A stretch of 64,000 bases of DNA, taken from Periweissella beninensis (lineage in GTDB: Bacteria; Bacillota; Bacilli; Lactobacillales; Lactobacillaceae). Made by a program: the position numbers and the translations under genes. Positions 509 to 21,254 of this stretch are shown one piece after another. The DNA is taken from NCBI RefSeq assembly GCF_016908275.1, contig NZ_JAFBDN010000004.1:62001-126000 (forward strand), given 5' to 3'. The notes beneath the pieces are model-generated. The model saw only the letters and a program-made list of their open reading frames with translations, was not told where the DNA came from and did no database searches. The first letter of the stretch is position 1. The number at the start of each line of letters is the position of its first letter.

Positions 509-531
509 TTAGTTAAATTAATATACAGTAA

Positions 532-644
532 ATCTTCAGGGCAGGGTGTAATTCCCGACCGGCGGTAAAGTCCGCGACCTTGTTTTTAACAAGTTGAACT
601 GGTGTGATTCCAGTACCGACAGTAAAGTCTGGTATGTAGAAGAT
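532..644 (+). promoter_or_regulatory. FMN riboswitch (RFN element)
   Basis: The conserved RFN blocks occur in order: P1 strand ATCTTC, then CAGGGCAGGGTG, TTCCCGACCGGCGGTAAAG, TCCGCGAC, a variable hairpin, GGTGTGATTCCAGTACCGAC, AGTAAAGTCTGG, and the closing P1 strand GAAGAT (639-644). This is the FMN-binding aptamer that shuts off riboflavin genes when FMN is abundant. It precedes the riboflavin transporter gene ribU. Bases 642-650 (GATTGGTTT) can pair with 665-673 (AAATCAATC) and so compete with the terminator that follows, which gives a plausible antiterminator for transcriptional control. Confidence 0.97.
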
Positions 645-668
645 TGGTTTATTTTGTTATGGACAAAT

Positions 669-3101: not shown

Positions 3102-4955
3102 ATGTTATCAAAAATTGCTTTATCAACTATTAAACATCGGTTAAAAGATTTTATTGTGTTATTTACTGGTTTGACAATTGCAGTCGCAATCTTTTTTATG
3201 TTTACCACGATTGCTAATAATCGTGCTTTCTTAGAAGCTAATTCAATAATTCAGCAAATTACGTTAATTTTTGTGATTGGTGAATTTTTACTAGGATTCA
3301 TTACATTAATTTACTTAACATTTGCTAATAATTTTCTATTACAATTACGCCAACGTGAATATGGTTTATTGATGATGTATGGAGCCACTAAAAGCCAAGT
3401 TTCACAGTTATTATTTAGAGAAACTCTTATTTTAGGTTCATTAGCTTCAGTAGTCGGGATCTTCGTCGGTATGGCGTTGACAGCGATTGCAGGGAATGTT
3501 TTACAAAAATTACTATATTTGAATTTACCACATTGGCAATTTTTTAATGGTCGAGGCTTAATTGTTACGATTGTTTTCTTTGCAGTAATTCTAACAATTA
3601 ACGGTATTTGGAATGTATTGCATTTAAAACGCACGCAACTTAATGATTTACTCCATGCCAATCAAGTAAATGAAAAACTACCAACTAAAATGGGACGTTA
3701 TTTTATTTTTGGTATTTTGGGTATTATTTTGATGATTTTAAGTTTCATAATCATGCACAAAATTGCGCAAATGGGCTTGATGGGCTTAATCTTAGCTTTG
3801 ATTTTGAATGTGAGTGGAACATTCTTAATTATTCGTGCTAGTTTGATTTTAATTTTGAACGTCTTACAAAAGTTAACTGGTTCATATAAGGGATTACGGC
3901 GCTTTACGATTGGTCAGTTAACCTTCCGCTTAAGCGCATTTGATAAGCTACTAACAATTGTGACGCTAATGTTTGCATTAGCACTCGGTGCATTGAGTGT
4001 AGGTCGAGGCTTTCAAATGACTGTTCCTATTTTGGCTAGCCAAAATTCCGCATACACCATTGCAATTAAAGATCCAACTAAGCAAGAGACGGCAAATATT
4101 GACAAGTTAACAGGCGTTACGTTTAAGACCACTTATCAATATAAAATGGTAAATAAAGCCAAACTTTATTTAAGTAAAGCCGAGTTTAGTCAAGTTAACC
4201 TACCAGTATTAGCAACTAATGGTACTATGCAGACGCAAGAATCCTTAAAAATACCAAAGACAACTTACGCTGATGCCAAAGAACTGGCTAATAAATATCC
4301 ATCAGCTTTAAATCAATTATTGGTTAATATTACTGCTAATAATGTTAATGTTACTGCTAATAATATGGGAGCGATTGATGCTAGCTTTTTAAATAAAACC
4401 GCATTTGCTGTAGCCAAAGGGCAATCTGGTTCGATTACGGTTATTCGGGTTAAAGATTATAATGCTAATGAAACAACTTTAGCGGCGTTAGTTAAATCAC
4501 AAATGGCAAATCATTCTGATTTTTCAACGGATACCATTACTGGTACTTATCCTATTGTTCAACTATTACGTAGTTACATGGGGGGGATTGAGTTTATGGG
4601 CTTCTTCTTAGCAATTGCATTCTTAACAATGCTTGCAAGTACTTTAATGTTTAAAGTATTAAGTAATACAGCAATTGATAAAAAACGGTATCGCATTTTA
4701 TCAATGATTGGTGCTAATACTAGTTTACTTAAACAAACCAATGCTAAAGAAATTGGTGTTATCTTTGGTATTCCAATGATTATTGGGTTCTTAGATGTTT
4801 GGTTTGGTTTACCAATGTTTAAACCAATCATGGGCAACGTTTATTTAGGATTTGGTTTTGCGGCAGTTGTCGTAGTTATCTTATACGTATTGTATTACTT
4901 GTTAACAGTATTTTTATATCAAAAAATACTAGCATTAAAACAAAAGCACAATTAA
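3102..4955 (+). CDS. BceB-type FtsX-domain ABC permease
   Basis: This 617-residue membrane protein has ten or so hydrophobic segments in the BceB pattern. One comes at the N terminus, a FtsX-type cluster of segments spans about 50-300, a large polar (probably extracytoplasmic) region spans about 310-485, and a final group of three segments reaches the C terminus. The motif NFLLQLRQREYGLLMMYGAT after the second segment is characteristic. With the ATPase upstream it would form a transporter that removes or senses cell-wall-active peptides or lipid-II-binding compounds; the exact substrate cannot be read from sequence. Ribosome binding site TAGGAG precedes the start. Confidence 0.88.
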   Translation: MLSKIALSTIKHRLKDFIVLFTGLTIAVAIFFMFTTIANNRAFLEANSIIQQITLIFVIGEFLLGFITLIYLTFANNFLLQLRQREYGLLMMYGATKSQVSQLLFRETLILGSLASVVGIFVGMALTAIAGNVLQKLLYLNLPHWQFFNGRGLIVTIVFFAVILTINGIWNVLHLKRTQLNDLLHANQVNEKLPTKMGRYFIFGILGIILMILSFIIMHKIAQMGLMGLILALILNVSGTFLIIRASLILILNVLQKLTGSYKGLRRFTIGQLTFRLSAFDKLLTIVTLMFALALGALSVGRGFQMTVPILASQNSAYTIAIKDPTKQETANIDKLTGVTFKTTYQYKMVNKAKLYLSKAEFSQVNLPVLATNGTMQTQESLKIPKTTYADAKELANKYPSALNQLLVNITANNVNVTANNMGAIDASFLNKTAFAVAKGQSGSITVIRVKDYNANETTLAALVKSQMANHSDFSTDTITGTYPIVQLLRSYMGGIEFMGFFLAIAFLTMLASTLMFKVLSNTAIDKKRYRILSMIGANTSLLKQTNAKEIGVIFGIPMIIGFLDVWFGLPMFKPIMGNVYLGFGFAAVVVVILYVLYYLLTVFLYQKILALKQKHN

Positions 4956-5010: not shown

Positions 5011-5221
5011 CTGCATTTTTGCTTGGCAAATAATAAGGAAGTGTTTGTGGTTTCGGTTAGGCAGTACTTATAGCGATGAATTAGTAAGCCATATTTTGAT
5101 AATATGGCCGGAAATATTAAATAAAAAGTAATATGCCTAATATAAGTTATATTGATCATTGATTAGGTGTATAATTTATATTCGGGAATTTATTTATATT
5201 ATCTATGAGAAGGATAAAATT

Positions 5222-8200
5222 TTGACAGAATTAATTTATAAAAGAGTTAATAATAATAGTTTCACACTTAAACTAGTCGATTTTAAAGTACAGGGATTAT
5301 TCGTTTATTTTAATCATAAATATAGACCATTACCGTTAGTAGCGGGAGCCTATTTAGTTAATATCAACGAATTAACGAATGATTATCATATTATTAATAC
5401 TACTAAGGGAAAAGTCGATTTTTATTTTCAAGAAAGCACTGGTCAATTTAAACGGTTAAATACAAATTTATTTAGGACCGTTACGCCAATTGGGCCGTTT
5501 AAATATCAAACGGTAGCAAATACCATGTTTTTCCACCGGACGGTTAATGGAAATTTAGCAATGATGCTTAATACGGTTCCTGGTATCCGCGGCTATATTG
5601 GTAATACGAGTATCACTGAGATTGAAACAACGCCAATAGCCATGATTTGGCGCGGTAGTATGGCAATACAACTATTGACAGTTGCAAAGCTTAGTCTCAA
5701 AATGATTGACCAAACTAATAATCATGGCATAGCAATAGCAGCTAAAATAATTAGTCAGGTTCATAATACGGTCATTTTTGAAATTACGATTAGTAAAGAA
5801 AAGTTGCATGATTTTTATCAAGAATTTGATTTAAAGACGGCAACGATTTTATTAAATACGTATTTAAAATTGACTTTTACGGAACTCCAAACGCGCCAAG
5901 ACATGGTCAAATTGCAAGGCTTTAGTGGCCAGACGCGTAATGAATTACAAAATATTTTAGTAAATCGGAAACCGGGTGAAAAAATTCGGGATAATATCTA
6001 TGCAAAATTTTTGCCAATTAAAGCGTTAACAACGGTACTTGAAAATCATCAATTGATGCATTTTTATCCTTATGTTAATAGTTATTTTAATTTAAAAGTG
6101 TCCTTAAGCTTAAGTCAATCTGAAACTAGCCAATTATTGCGAAATGACAAACAAAGAGCCTTAAACTTAGCTCATTTAAAGCATGTGGAGCCTAAGACTG
6201 GAATGGTAGTAATAGATATTAATGAAGATCTTTGGAAAAAATATTCAACAATCACAACCATTCTAGCGTTATTAACGGAATACGCGTTTAAAAGTGTGTA
6301 TCTGTTAGCACCACCTAATTTAGATTTAACTTTTTTAAACACAAAAATAGAAGCAGAATTACATATCGTTCAGCGAAATAGTGATCAAGCAATTCAAAGC
6401 CAAGCGCAAGCCGCATGGTTAATTGATAACGAACTAGTAGTTAGAGAAAACATGCCGCAACAAATGATTGCTGAGAAGTATACAATTACGGATGTTACCA
6501 GTGTTAATGATGGCTTACTTATTAAAGTCGACACAGCACAATTGATTTCGCAAAATAAGGATTTTTATCTAGTAATTACTAATCGTGATAATAAAGATCA
6601 ATATTATCTGGCAAGTGAAAATGTTGCTGAAGAGGCGTTAACCTTTAAGATAAGTAATACTATCCTTATTACAGAAATTTGGCCTCAAATATGGCAACAA
6701 CAAGGATTATTAGATTTAGGGTTGGTTATTGATAATCGTGATCATAGGCGGCAATTAGCGGAATTACCACGCTTGACGCTAATCGCGGCAACGCCAAAGC
6801 TACAAGCCAAAATTACCGATTGGTATTTGGACTTACATGCCAATTTAGATAAGCAATTAAGCACGAAAATTGGTTATGACAGTCATGTTATTAAATTGGC
6901 TGATGAAAACAATGTCTTGGTGTTGACTCCTTATATTAACAAGTCGTTGAAACTAACATTTGCAATTATAAAAGTTAAGCAAGCAATTCATACTAAGTTA
7001 GTTGAAAATGGCGTACCAATTCCGATTGCGAAGACACCTGATAGTCGAATTGCTAGTTATTATGCTGAACTCATCACAACTACTGAAGTTATTCCACAGA
7101 CAATTTTATATGAATCACGAGATGGACAAACGATTGTTGATTCACCATTAGCGATTTTTGATTATCTTAAAAAAGATACTTTTTTTGCTAATTATCAACA
7201 TATTTGGGTGATTAATAATCCTGACAATCCGACAATTCATGAATTAGATGAATATCAACAGGATAATGTTAAAGTCGTTATTAGAAATACCGCTGCATAT
7301 TTTAAAGCAATGGCAACTGCTAATTATTTAATCACTAATGCAACATTACCAGCATTTTTTGTCAAGCAGCCACAACAGATTATTGTAAACACCTGGCATG
7401 GCACACCACTTAAGCATATGGGATTTGATATGCCAGGTGATCCTGGTAAATCAAAAAATGTGGTCCGTAATTTTTTGATGGCTGATTATTTAATTTCTCC
7501 CAATACTCATACTACTAATATTTTATTAAATGGATATAAATTAGCTGGTCTTTTTACTGGTAAAATTATTGAAAATGGGTATCCTAGAATTGATTTTACG
7601 TTAAACGCGAATCAAGTCCAGCTTAAACAGCAACTTACAAAGCTAGGAATCAAACTTGATAATAATAAAAAAGTAATTGCTTGGACCCCAACTTGGAAAG
7701 GAGAGGCAGTCAATGCGCCGACTGATGATATTGCTAGTATAATTAAAAGTTTCAAACAGTTACAGACTAGTTTACCAGCATATAATGTCGTGCTAAAAGT
7801 GCATCCTTTTATTTATGATTTAATTAGAAATGAGCCTAGTTTAGTACATTCTTTAATTCCTGATAGCTTTGACCCTAATAAATTTTTAGGTCTTGTCGAT
7901 ATTTTAATCACTGATTATTCAAGTATCTTTTTTGATTATTTAGCAACTAAGAAACCAATTATCTTTTTTGTCCCCGATAAAGATGCTTATCAAGCTCAAC
8001 GTGGTTTATACTTAAAAGAAAAGAACCTACCGGGGCCAATTGAGCGTCGCTTGGCAAATGTCATTGATGATATTAACAATATTGATATAATTAACCTAAA
8101 ATATCAGCAGCAATATGCACAAATTGCTGCTGATATGGTTAAATATGATGATGGTCAGACTACTAAAAAATATGTTGATGCCATTTTTAAGGGTCAAACG

Positions 8201-9448
8201 AACAATCTTAAAATTATTCAACAACATCGTTTTAAGAAACGAATTTTAATTTATCCTGGTAGCTTAGCCAAAAACGGGATTACGACCAGTTATATTAATT
8301 TAATGAGTAATCTTGATTTTACGCAATATGATGTAACCCAAATTGGCGCATTAGCCACAGATGGTGGACTCGAAAACACATTAAAAGTACCAAAAAATGT
8401 CCGCCAAATGTTTTTGGTTGGCGCACCGCTTTTAACAGTTAATGAACGGCTTGAAGATGCCTACAATAATGAATTAGGTGTAAATGATCCCACCTTTTAT
8501 CCCCAAATAGGTTATGAAAGGAATATGCGACGATTATTGGGAAACCAAGTTTTTGATGTAGCAATTGATTATAGTGGCTATAGTTTCTATTGGGCACATA
8601 ACATAGTAGCGGCTAAGGCGACTAAGCATATTATTTTTATGCATAATGATTTAGCTGCAGATGCGCTGCGTAAGATTGGTGATTATAAACCACACTATCA
8701 GAATTTAACTACTTTATTTACGTTATTGAAGAAATTTGATTTGGCATTATCTGTTTCACCCGCACTTCGGGATATTAATGCTAAAAAACTGAAAGCATAT
8801 ATTAAACCACGTAAGATTAAGGCTCAAGTTAATACACTGAATTTAAAAAATTTAGAGCAAGCGTTGGCGGTAGATGTTACCCAAAAATTTAAAGTAATGG
8901 AAAATATTTTTGGAGAAACAATTGTTGATTTTGATGAAAATGTTGCTAATTTTGTTGTTTCAGCCCGACTTTCACCAGAAAAGAATCATCTTAATTTAAT
9001 TGAAGCATTTGCAAAATATGTTACTGACATTGATTATACTGCACGTTTGTACTGTTTGGGCCAAGGACCATTAGCAAGAATATTACAAGACAAAATTATA
9101 AACTTGCATATGGAAAAGCATATTTTTTTAGTCGGATATCTAGATAAACCATTCGAATTTATTCGAAAAACAGATTATTTTATTTTACCGTCATTATGGG
9201 AAGGACAACCAATGGTATTATTAGAAGCAATGACACTTGGTAAAAAAATATTAGCAACTAATATTGCGACTAATCAATATGTTATTGGCCGTCATGAAAA
9301 ATACGGCTGTTTAACTAATGGCACCACAGTAGCTGCTATCTTTAAGGGGCTAATAAAGTTAGTTAAGAGTACTAAACGCTATAAACAATTTAATGCGGAA
9401 AAATATAATAAACAAGCAATTAGAAATTTTTATCGGTATTTAAGATAA
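5222..9448 (+). CDS. Fused CDP-glycerol glycerophosphotransferase–GT4 glycosyltransferase
   Basis: This is a 1408-residue protein. About 600 N-terminal residues match nothing I recognise and look like beta-rich accessory modules. Then comes a teichoic-acid polymerase domain: YESRDGQTIVDSPLAIFDYL near 655, NTWHGTPLKHMG near 723 with the likely catalytic His, KVHPF, and TDYSSIFFDY near 897, matching TagF-type enzymes that move glycerol phosphate from CDP-glycerol. The last ~400 residues are a GT4 glycosyltransferase with SARLSPEKNH near 1247 and the EX7E-type region PSLWEGQPMVLLEAM near 1323. It probably builds and sugar-decorates a glycerol-phosphate wall polymer at the inner membrane face. 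The start is the TTG at 5222, with AGAAGGA eight bases before it; an upstream in-frame TTG at 5159 would lie on top of the likely -10 TATAAT (5170-5175). It stands alone between terminators. Confidence 0.85.
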   Translation: MTELIYKRVNNNSFTLKLVDFKVQGLFVYFNHKYRPLPLVAGAYLVNINELTNDYHIINTTKGKVDFYFQESTGQFKRLNTNLFRTVTPIGPFKYQTVANTMFFHRTVNGNLAMMLNTVPGIRGYIGNTSITEIETTPIAMIWRGSMAIQLLTVAKLSLKMIDQTNNHGIAIAAKIISQVHNTVIFEITISKEKLHDFYQEFDLKTATILLNTYLKLTFTELQTRQDMVKLQGFSGQTRNELQNILVNRKPGEKIRDNIYAKFLPIKALTTVLENHQLMHFYPYVNSYFNLKVSLSLSQSETSQLLRNDKQRALNLAHLKHVEPKTGMVVIDINEDLWKKYSTITTILALLTEYAFKSVYLLAPPNLDLTFLNTKIEAELHIVQRNSDQAIQSQAQAAWLIDNELVVRENMPQQMIAEKYTITDVTSVNDGLLIKVDTAQLISQNKDFYLVITNRDNKDQYYLASENVAEEALTFKISNTILITEIWPQIWQQQGLLDLGLVIDNRDHRRQLAELPRLTLIAATPKLQAKITDWYLDLHANLDKQLSTKIGYDSHVIKLADENNVLVLTPYINKSLKLTFAIIKVKQAIHTKLVENGVPIPIAKTPDSRIASYYAELITTTEVIPQTILYESRDGQTIVDSPLAIFDYLKKDTFFANYQHIWVINNPDNPTIHELDEYQQDNVKVVIRNTAAYFKAMATANYLITNATLPAFFVKQPQQIIVNTWHGTPLKHMGFDMPGDPGKSKNVVRNFLMADYLISPNTHTTNILLNGYKLAGLFTGKIIENGYPRIDFTLNANQVQLKQQLTKLGIKLDNNKKVIAWTPTWKGEAVNAPTDDIASIIKSFKQLQTSLPAYNVVLKVHPFIYDLIRNEPSLVHSLIPDSFDPNKFLGLVDILITDYSSIFFDYLATKKPIIFFVPDKDAYQAQRGLYLKEKNLPGPIERRLANVIDDINNIDIINLKYQQQYAQIAADMVKYDDGQTTKKYVDAIFKGQTNNLKIIQQHRFKKRILIYPGSLAKNGITTSYINLMSNLDFTQYDVTQIGALATDGGLENTLKVPKNVRQMFLVGAPLLTVNERLEDAYNNELGVNDPTFYPQIGYERNMRRLLGNQVFDVAIDYSGYSFYWAHNIVAAKATKHIIFMHNDLAADALRKIGDYKPHYQNLTTLFTLLKKFDLALSVSPALRDINAKKLKAYIKPRKIKAQVNTLNLKNLEQALAVDVTQKFKVMENIFGETIVDFDENVANFVVSARLSPEKNHLNLIEAFAKYVTDIDYTARLYCLGQGPLARILQDKIINLHMEKHIFLVGYLDKPFEFIRKTDYFILPSLWEGQPMVLLEAMTLGKKILATNIATNQYVIGRHEKYGCLTNGTTVAAIFKGLIKLVKSTKRYKQFNAEKYNKQAIRNFYRYLR

Positions 9449-9488: not shown

Positions 9489-9549
9489 AGCTGTAATTGG
9501 TGGCTACCTTAAAGTGATATCACTTTAAGGTAGCCACCTTTTTTCAGCT
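9489..9549. terminator. Strong bidirectional terminator, 18-bp perfect stem
   Basis: GGTGGCTACCTTAAAGTG (9499-9516) is perfectly complementary to 9521-9538 around the loop ATAT. A run of A precedes it and a run of T follows, so it can stop transcription from both sides. An outer short repeat AGCTG (9489-9493) / CAGCT (9545-9549) extends the symmetry. Confidence 0.9.
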
Positions 9550-9566: not shown

Positions 9567-10177
9567 TTAATTCAAAATATTAATACCTTTGATAAAATTT
9601 ATTAATTTAGTAGTATCAGAGTTAACAAGACGGCCTTTGACAGTCACCATATAGATAAGCCGTTCCCATTTTGGAAATGAGATTGGGATAATACGAATTG
9701 GTAGATTATATAACATGTCCATCATAGGCACAACTGCAATTCCAAAATCATTAGCCACTAAACCCGCGATTGTTTCATCTTCTTCAACCGCACAAATACT
9801 ATTTGGTTTACCACCACATAAGTTAAACAAATCAGCAAGCTGGTGGCTAAGCCCACTTTTAAGTGCAAAGGTAATTTAAGGATAGGGAAGTGTTTCGGCT
9901 AGATTAACAGCTGTTTTATTGGCAAGCGGGTGATTAAGTGGGGTGATTAAAACCATTTTTTGCCGACTTATTGGGGTGAATTCGAATAAGTTATCATCAC
10001 GACACTTAGAGCAAAAGGCTACATCAAACTCTTCTGCTAGTAAACTATTTAAAATATCAGGACTTAAGCCAGTACCAGTACTAATTGAAAACTTGCTAGA
10101 GGTTAGTTGGTTGTTTTCAAATTTTTTTAATAATTGTGGCAACCAATTAACAGTGACATATCTAATAGAGCCAATTC
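9567..10177 (-). pseudogene. LysR-type regulator remnant (substrate-binding domain only)
   Basis: Read on the minus strand from about 10177, the frame gives GSIRYVTVNWLPQLLKKFENN and continues through a typical LysR effector domain (SRQKMVLITPLNHPLAN). It then meets a TAA stop (9876-9878) and carries on in the same frame with FNLCGGKPNSICAVEEDETI and NDFGIAVVPMMDML to a final stop at 9567. The N-terminal helix-turn-helix (about 90 residues) is absent, so it cannot bind DNA as a normal LysR protein. Together with the MFS remnant on the other strand this looks like a divergent regulator/transporter pair collapsed by a deletion centred near 10150-10180. Confidence 0.88.
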
Positions 10178-21060: not shown

Positions 21061-21082
21061 AAAAAAAGCATTATTTTTAAGG

Positions 21083-21178
21083 TAATAGCTACTTCCCTAC
21101 GCGAGTATTAACTCAACAGGTTCAAGGGTCCTAGCGCAATGCTAATCTCAGTGACGATAACTGTCACACCCCTAGTGC
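21083..21178 (-). promoter_or_regulatory. TPP riboswitch (THI element)
   Basis: On the minus strand the conserved blocks occur in order: ACTAGGGGTG, CTGAGATTAG, ACCCTTGAACCTGTTGAGTT and GCGTAGGGAAGTAG. These form the TPP-binding aptamer. With the terminator hairpin that follows it should switch off tenA-thiM-thiD-thiE when thiamine pyrophosphate is plentiful. Confidence 0.97.
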
Positions 21179-21254
21179 ATAAATATTATTGATTGTTGTC
21201 AGTTTAACATAGCCCTAACTAATAAGTCCACACCTTATTTTTTATTTTTTATAA

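Follow-up and report, generated by a model that had tools for sequence, protein, structure and literature searches.

A predicted TagF-like/GT4 polymerase with an orphan N-terminal half in Periweissella beninensis and its GW-insert-bearing relatives

A stretch of 64,000 nucleotides of Periweissella beninensis DNA (contig NZ_JAFBDN010000004.1, positions 62,001 to 126,000; hereafter the window, numbered from its first letter) carries at 5222-9448 on the forward strand a gene for a protein of 1408 residues. By its sequence the protein belongs to the TagF-like/GT-B polymerases, an enzyme kind already known. By analogy with the capsule polymerase Cps3D, a two-site enzyme that alternately adds two units to build a [hexose-glycerol-phosphate]n polymer is probably the best explanation of the protein as a whole. 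What is new here is a Gram-positive, stand-alone member of this kind that is without the insert of its kin, has an orphan front half and occurs in a genus without detectable TagA.

The enzyme would be a cytosolic polymerase with two active sites. The TagF-like domain (residues 622-990) would use CDP-glycerol to place glycerol-3-phosphate on a hydroxyl of the sugar that ends the growing chain, and the GT4 domain (residues 1000-1408) would then add a sugar, taken from a nucleotide sugar, to the glycerol at the end, with retention (alpha). Alternation of the two steps would give a [hexose-glycerol-phosphate]n backbone, a polymer resembling type II teichoic acid. We infer that both sites are active and alternate on one chain, as we do the sugar, the acceptor and the anchor.

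The gene is real and intact. It is a single open frame with a TTG start and a stop at 9446-9448, and the terminator located 3' of it (9499-9538) is strong by folding energy. An earlier note on this DNA had divided the 1408-residue chain into an unrecognised N-terminal half, a glycerophosphotransferase and a GT4 glycosyltransferase, and this division was borne out by the intact frame and by Pfam, which placed Glyphos_transf at residues 622-990 (E 1.9e-80) and Glycos_transf_1 at residues 1238-1395 (E 2.8e-24). The motifs on which it was based are present (WHGTPLKH at residue 725, TDYSS at 897, SARLSPEKN at 1247 and WEGQPM at 1326). The profile search of the separate parts that it had proposed found the two enzyme domains and, with an E limit of 10 and the HMMER filters on, no Pfam family on residues 1-621, so that its description of about 600 N-terminal residues as unrecognised also stands. 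The features of the gene are as follows.

5222..9448, forward strand: whole gene, an open reading frame of 1408 codons plus stop with a TTG start
5208..5213, forward strand: Shine-Dalgarno-like AGAAGG, read from the sequence, with an 8-base spacer before the TTG
5222..6961, forward strand: orphan N-terminal part, residues 1-580, with no convincing relative in family, order, class, plasmid and viral searches
6284..6433, forward strand: residues 355-404, weak and unproven likeness to the N-terminal Rossmann lobe of TagF (3.7-5.4 bits; 9 of 2000 shuffles as high)
6962..7084, forward strand: linker, residues 581-621, aligning with the end of the Cps3D TPR region and the start of its TagF-like domain
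7085..8191, forward strand: predicted CDP-glycerol glycerophosphotransferase (TagF-like, GT-B), residues 622-990, from PF04464 (E 1.9e-80), alignment to TagF (3l7i) and Cps3D, and the model; active-site His726 and His861
8219..8866, forward strand: N-terminal lobe of the GT4 glycosyltransferase, residues 1000-1215, from alignment and model
8867..8932, forward strand: inter-lobe linker, residues 1216-1237, the site of a GW insert of 306-404 residues in the nearest relatives
8933..9445, forward strand: C-terminal nucleotide-sugar lobe of the GT4 glycosyltransferase, residues 1238-1408, from PF00534 (E 2.8e-24) and Cps3D alignment; Arg1249, Lys1254, Glu1327 and Glu1335
9499..9538, forward strand: terminator hairpin with a stem of 18 bp and a run of T after it (-40.1 kcal/mol, z -11.2)

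A sequence search of all PDB chains returned Cps3D (8qoy) as the top match over residues 581-1407 (E 1.2e-111), with TagF (4.8e-45) and TarM (2.2e-6 at best) ranked lower. Residue alignment placed His726 and His861 of the window protein on His444 and His584 of TagF, and Arg1249, Lys1254, Glu1327 and Glu1335 on Arg982, Lys987, Glu1059 and Glu1067 of Cps3D; these positions were counted by hand, and the 8qoy chain is offset by 3 from the published Cps3D numbers. The window protein has both marks of the TagF-like polymerase class, a TagF-like domain with the active-site histidines and a C-terminal GT-B (GT4) domain with the R/K and EX7E residues; among the five published TagF-class motifs, those checked were the two histidines and TDYSS. 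A doubt raised earlier, that the GT4 part may lack a nucleotide-sugar pocket, is answered by the retention of its four residues, as far as sequence and model show.

The model, built for residues 560-1408 from 5 sequences, had a mean predicted local distance difference test score (pLDDT) of 74.7 and matched 8qoy with Z 35.7 and a root-mean-square deviation of 4.7 over 746 residues. The structure matches that followed were TagF, including TagF with CDP-glycerol, for the first half and UDP-bound GT4 enzymes for the second. With the TarF equivalog NF041712 the window protein scored 178.6 bits, far below the cut-off of 550.

Cps3D and Cps7D of Actinobacillus pleuropneumoniae are reported to transfer glycerol-3-phosphate (from CDP-glycerol) and galactose (from UDP-galactose) alternately, forming poly(galactosyl-glycerol phosphate), a function supported by NMR of the products and by active-site mutants, and their authors liken the polymers to type II wall teichoic acid (Litschko et al. 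2018, PMC5974469; Nat Chem Biol 2024, PMC11666461). In Cps3D (serotype 3; PDB 8QOY) and Cps7D, too, a single chain carries a TagF-like domain and, C-terminal to it, a GT4 GT-B domain, with 30-32% core identity to the window protein and the same catalytic residues. They differ from it in belonging to a Gram-negative capsule system rather than to a Gram-positive cell, and the front of Cps3D is a predicted four-helix bundle with a TPR region, whereas that of the window protein consists of about 580 residues without a Pfam entry. The TPR region occurs in most but not all TagF-like/GT-B polymerases and so does not strictly define them.

Because the match to Cps3D runs from end to end of the core with the catalytic residues kept, the sugar is most likely a backbone unit. 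The earlier ideas of a bifunctional polymerase and of a fixed ratio of sugar to glycerol phosphate, set by coupling on one polypeptide, fit well: Cps3D, the closest solved protein, does this with its two domains arranged alike. By the same analogy the sugar would be built into the backbone and not added to a completed polymer. The concern that the product might be a common, already characterised family was partly right: the class is characterised in Gram-negatives (PMC5974469, PMC11666461). TagF itself (type I wall teichoic acid polymerase, PDB 3L7I) shares the glycerophosphotransferase domain and the two histidines with the window protein but has no glycosyltransferase domain. Bcs3, the capsule polymerase of Haemophilus influenzae b, is also a multi-enzyme polymerase with a TagF-like domain, but has a ribosyltransferase and a phosphatase in place of GT4, and an SH3b domain; the window protein has no recognised GW or SH3b part. 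Homologues of Bcs3, with another architecture, are reported in Gram-positives (PMC10299916). No description of Gram-positive TagF-GT4 or TagF-GW-GT4 polymerases was met in a limited set of searches of open-licence PMC texts.

Such fusions are found in Gram-positive genomes. Fused genes of related taxa, with which the earlier note had proposed a comparison, were sought with a 351-residue junction query that runs from the last part of the TagF domain through the N-terminal GT4 lobe. Of 315 genomes in the order, at least 34, the own genome included, carry a TagF-GT4 fusion; this is a lower bound, counted from printed matches reaching from residue 10 or before to residue 309 or beyond. The protein examined has a 306-404-residue stretch between its GT4 lobes in 27 of the 34. 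The other seven comprise the window protein, with a linker of only 22 residues and no GW match, one protein with a linker of 44, one with its second lobe outside the fetched stretch, and four that were not examined. GW modules (PF13457) scored above the Pfam cut-off in all five long-stretch proteins that were run, and the GW[LIVF] motif occurs in all listed long inter-lobe stretches. Proteins with the insert include the following.

L060:11944-18786, and L036, L037, L038, L039, L063 and L143-L162: GW-insert proteins, by Pfam on five and motif counts on the rest

Members of this TagF-GW-GT4 group (Enterococcus gallinarum L060, Enterococcus lactis L062, Peribacillus L063 and others of the order) are 43-51% identical to the window protein in the TagF domain. 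They start shortly upstream of that domain, whereas the window protein has about 580 additional N-terminal residues, and they have the GW insert and mostly tagB-tagA-tarF-like neighbours, both of which the window protein lacks. GW modules are known as wall-binding parts of surface proteins, and abstracts report them from Listeria surface proteins that are held by teichoic acids; here they occur within proteins expected to be cytosolic, between the lobes of a GT4 enzyme and mostly near tagA. The SH3b domain of Bcs3, which is reported to hold the polymer and whose disruption abolishes activity (PMC10299916), offers a model for these inserts.

The same fusion was found beyond the order on three actinobacterial contigs and one viral contig, and on plasmids of Enterococcus, Staphylococcus, Peribacillus, Phaeobacter and Paracoccus (four inspected). 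On a Staphylococcus nepalensis plasmid (L061:5509-8853) a GT2-TagF fusion lies beside a TagF-GT4 fusion, two polymerase-like architectures adjoining each other, and two further proteins (L046:4067-9064 and L047:17027-19900) each have a tandem of two complete TagF-like domains in a single chain.

The gene neighbourhoods of the insert-bearing relatives were compared at 25 loci (20 newly fetched and 5 earlier), which were chosen for the insert-bearing gene and not at random. Gene labels came from BLAST against the cluster of E. gallinarum, in which Pfam had confirmed TagA and the two TagF-type genes. TagA was present within the stretch at 19 loci and was not in the fetched stretch at the other six. 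At 17 loci the labelled genes follow the order TagF/B-type gene, TagA, second TagF-type gene (about 390-430 residues) and fused gene, 15 times plainly and twice with a TagD-labelled gene in between; unlabelled genes were not printed, and strict adjacency is known for the annotated E. gallinarum cluster alone. The fused gene points away from TagA at L147, and TagA is on the opposite strand at L159. The first TagF-type gene of these clusters may be a primase and the second TarF. The tagB-tagA-tarF-like order indicates that the fused gene usually occupies the place of TagF/TarL in type I clusters, and the TagF-GW-GT4 proteins are therefore candidates for complex (type II) wall-teichoic-acid polymerases.

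A tree of the core was computed from 38 rows, consisting of 31 proteins with the long stretch, six with a short linker and the window protein. L113, L121, L128, L138 and L139 were left out as duplicates of the window protein or of L036-L039, as were L036_121 and L141, which had no matched C-terminal lobe; several rows are without their final residues, as the fetched locus ends there. The window protein lies inside the insert-bearing group, in a set of 8 rows (95/92) and a set of 10 rows (98/94) that otherwise hold insert-bearing rows only. A tree grouping the 31 insert-bearing rows without the window protein was rejected by the approximately unbiased (AU) test (p 0.0149), which was run after the tree had been seen and with the group defined by the insert. 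The long end branch of the window protein calls for caution here, the fork nearest to it is weak (91/63), and the fork uniting all insert-bearing rows is unsettled (88/95). The placement inside the insert-bearing group suggests that the GW insert was probably lost in the line of the window protein. At 6 of the 110 columns that are invariant in the 31 insert-bearing relatives the window protein differs, which is the top of the range of 0 to 6 departures for single relatives, each compared with the rest. All six catalytic residues that were checked are retained, which speaks against decay.

Several observations weigh against an alternating polymerase. The Glyphos_transf family also includes primases and enzymes that add a single unit, and the homology on which the substrate is predicted does not surely separate glycerol phosphate from other polyol or hexose phosphates. 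The end branch of the window protein is long (1.27 against a median of 0.36). Among 48 scanned open reading frames of the window there is no tag/tar gene, and the gene lies outside any polymer cluster. These 48 were scanned with Pfam or NCBIfam and belong to the 55 other frames of at least 100 residues in the window, the remaining seven of which overlap scanned genes; the scanned genes code for ABC/ECF transporters and for housekeeping functions, among them thi, gyrAB, topA and pur. Finally, TagA (PF03808) was found in none of the five genomes of the genus, whereas the control search found it in 7 of 14 reference genomes including B. subtilis, and the canonical linkage unit of wall teichoic acid is therefore probably not the acceptor.

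The gene had been described as alone, which holds for the window but not for the genome, where TagD and three TagF-like genes lie elsewhere. TagD, the glycerol-3-phosphate cytidylyltransferase that serves as CDP-glycerol synthase, is encoded on another contig (L097; TIGR01518, 195 bits against a cut-off of 165.4), which speaks for the two-site polymerase. A LicD-family gene adjoins tagD and a second LicD gene lies a few genes upstream. Together with a gene that reads like a flippase, these genes (L097:4087-9109) form a possible glycerol-phosphate polymer locus without TagA, which recalls poly(glycerol phosphate) synthesis of the CpsC (LicD) type. The three further TagF-like proteins (697, 820 and 856 residues; L040, L098) are encoded on one contig. 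Another match in the genome, on contig C1 (L045), proved to be a tandem pair of GT4 genes and not a polymerase.

Within the genus a full-length counterpart was found in one of five genomes, the own one; the other four gave separate TagF-type or GT4 matches only. The upstream gene order is kept in G002-G004 as far as the ABC permease gene at 3102-4955, after which the region differs, and this permease was not found in G001. The position of the gene at this breakpoint makes it look acquired or rearranged. Downstream, the reverse strand at 9567-10175 carries what reads like the effector domain of a LysR-type regulator, in a broken gene split over two frames. Two riboswitches were also noted in the window, an FMN riboswitch at 528-648 (forward strand) before the gene for an ECF transporter substrate-binding protein and a TPP riboswitch at 21077-21183 (reverse strand) before thiamine genes.

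Decoration in place of backbone synthesis would mean that the GT4 domain adds side-chain sugars to poly(glycerol phosphate) in the manner of TarM of S. aureus, with polymerisation and decoration fused and a backbone of type I. The GT4 half of the model is structurally near TarM too (7qd7, Z 30.6), and the separate TagF-like protein of 697 residues in the same genome could make or prime a type I polymer. Against this, Cps3D has its sugar in the backbone, and its homology to the window protein extends over the whole core and far exceeds the sequence match to TarM (E 2.2e-6 at best). At the 17 loci with tagB-tagA-tarF-like genes, moreover, the interval from these genes to the fused one has no long stand-alone TagF-type gene listed; two other loci, L143 and L147, do contain a TagF-type gene of about 765-771 residues. 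We consider decoration unlikely. Less likely still is a transition or capping enzyme, each domain of which would act once or a few times on another surface polymer and make no long chain. Such a role would be in line with the failure to find TagA in the five genomes of the genus, with the absence from the window protein of the GW insert, possibly the part that holds the polymer, and with the two LicD-family genes by tagD, which might be the source of the main polymer; in A. pleuropneumoniae this is reported to be the role of CpsC, of the LicD family (PMC11666461). The nearer relatives, however, show the layout and the gene position of polymerases, and Cps3D truncated of its TPR region is reported still to elongate capsule fragments, with processive elongation hampered (PMC11666461).

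A decaying gene or a fusion without function, its N-terminal extension being random, seems very improbable. Its occurrence at full length in a single genome of the genus, its long branch, its lower G+C content (0.327 for the gene against 0.367 for the window), the broken reading frame downstream and the six changed invariant columns at the top of the range would all agree with decay. Against this, 1408 codons are open without a stop, the catalytic residues checked are all kept, one insert-bearing relative also has six changes and two have five, and the gene has its own ribosome-binding site and terminator. The alternating two-site polymerase remains the preferred explanation of the window protein.

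No convincing match to residues 1-605 outside the own genome was found in 397 genomes of the family, 395 of the order and 398 of the class, sets that are overlapping draws each containing the own genome, and there were no matches in the plasmid and viral collections. Matches at E 0.001-0.007 occurred in five family, one order and two class genomes besides the own. Four of these weak matches were inspected, and by reading two are glucansucrase-like, one is PTS-permease-like and one is BirA-like; they were taken as chance, as were the other three (L052, L071 and L072). An AlphaFold model of residues 1-620 from the single sequence had a mean pLDDT of 32.5 and was discarded.

Three candidate origins of the N-terminal part were considered and not accepted. 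Homology to the GW insert gave an hhalign P of 0.66 and a best hmmsearch domain of 0.5 bits (E 0.028 in a two-sequence search), and a blastp match of the L036 insert to residues 379-487 (E 0.001, without composition correction) was not supported by either of these programs. Derivation from the beta-rich module that precedes the TagF domain in other TagF-like proteins of the genus was likewise dismissed: the best stretch for its 15-row profile was residues 548-581 (4.9 bits; 13 of 2000 shuffles as high), hhalign gave P 0.02 with a 4-row set, and in a larger search the protein had E 7.4, which is not significant. The third was a second, truncated TagF lobe at residues 355-404, which the shuffles listed above kept from being accepted as shown. 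Two GT4 proteins of about 570-600 residues in genome G043 (L042:3930-5726 and L041:3957-5672) seemingly start with a truncated first lobe of TagF (19.6 and 6.5 bits). By analogy with the TPR region in Cps3D or with the SH3b domain in Bcs3, our guess is that residues 1-580 might hold the acceptor or a partner and set processivity.

Wall teichoic acids are reported to be phage receptors and surface antigens (e.g. PMC9045211). The role of homologues of the capsule polymerases in type II wall teichoic acid was left for study by Litschko et al. in 2018 (PMC5974469), and the 2023 paper on Bcs3 states that no polymerase had yet been identified for complex wall teichoic acids, only type I synthesis being well studied (PMC10299916). 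Since the wider group of relatives supplies candidates for this step of teichoic-acid synthesis, it holds more interest than the gene of the window by itself. Tentatively, and with somewhat more doubt than confidence, it may be suggested that the TagF-GW-GT4 proteins encoded after tagB-tagA-tarF-like genes in this Gram-positive order are the missing type II (glycosyl-glycerol-phosphate) wall-teichoic-acid polymerases, the GW module between the GT lobes holding the polymer, and that the window protein is an escaped descendant which exchanged the module for a new N-terminus and makes a polymer of that kind on another anchor, one independent of TagA. The gene clusters of the relatives are testable candidates for complex wall-teichoic-acid polymerases, and whether the GW module is dispensable is a question that the window protein naturally puts to the test.

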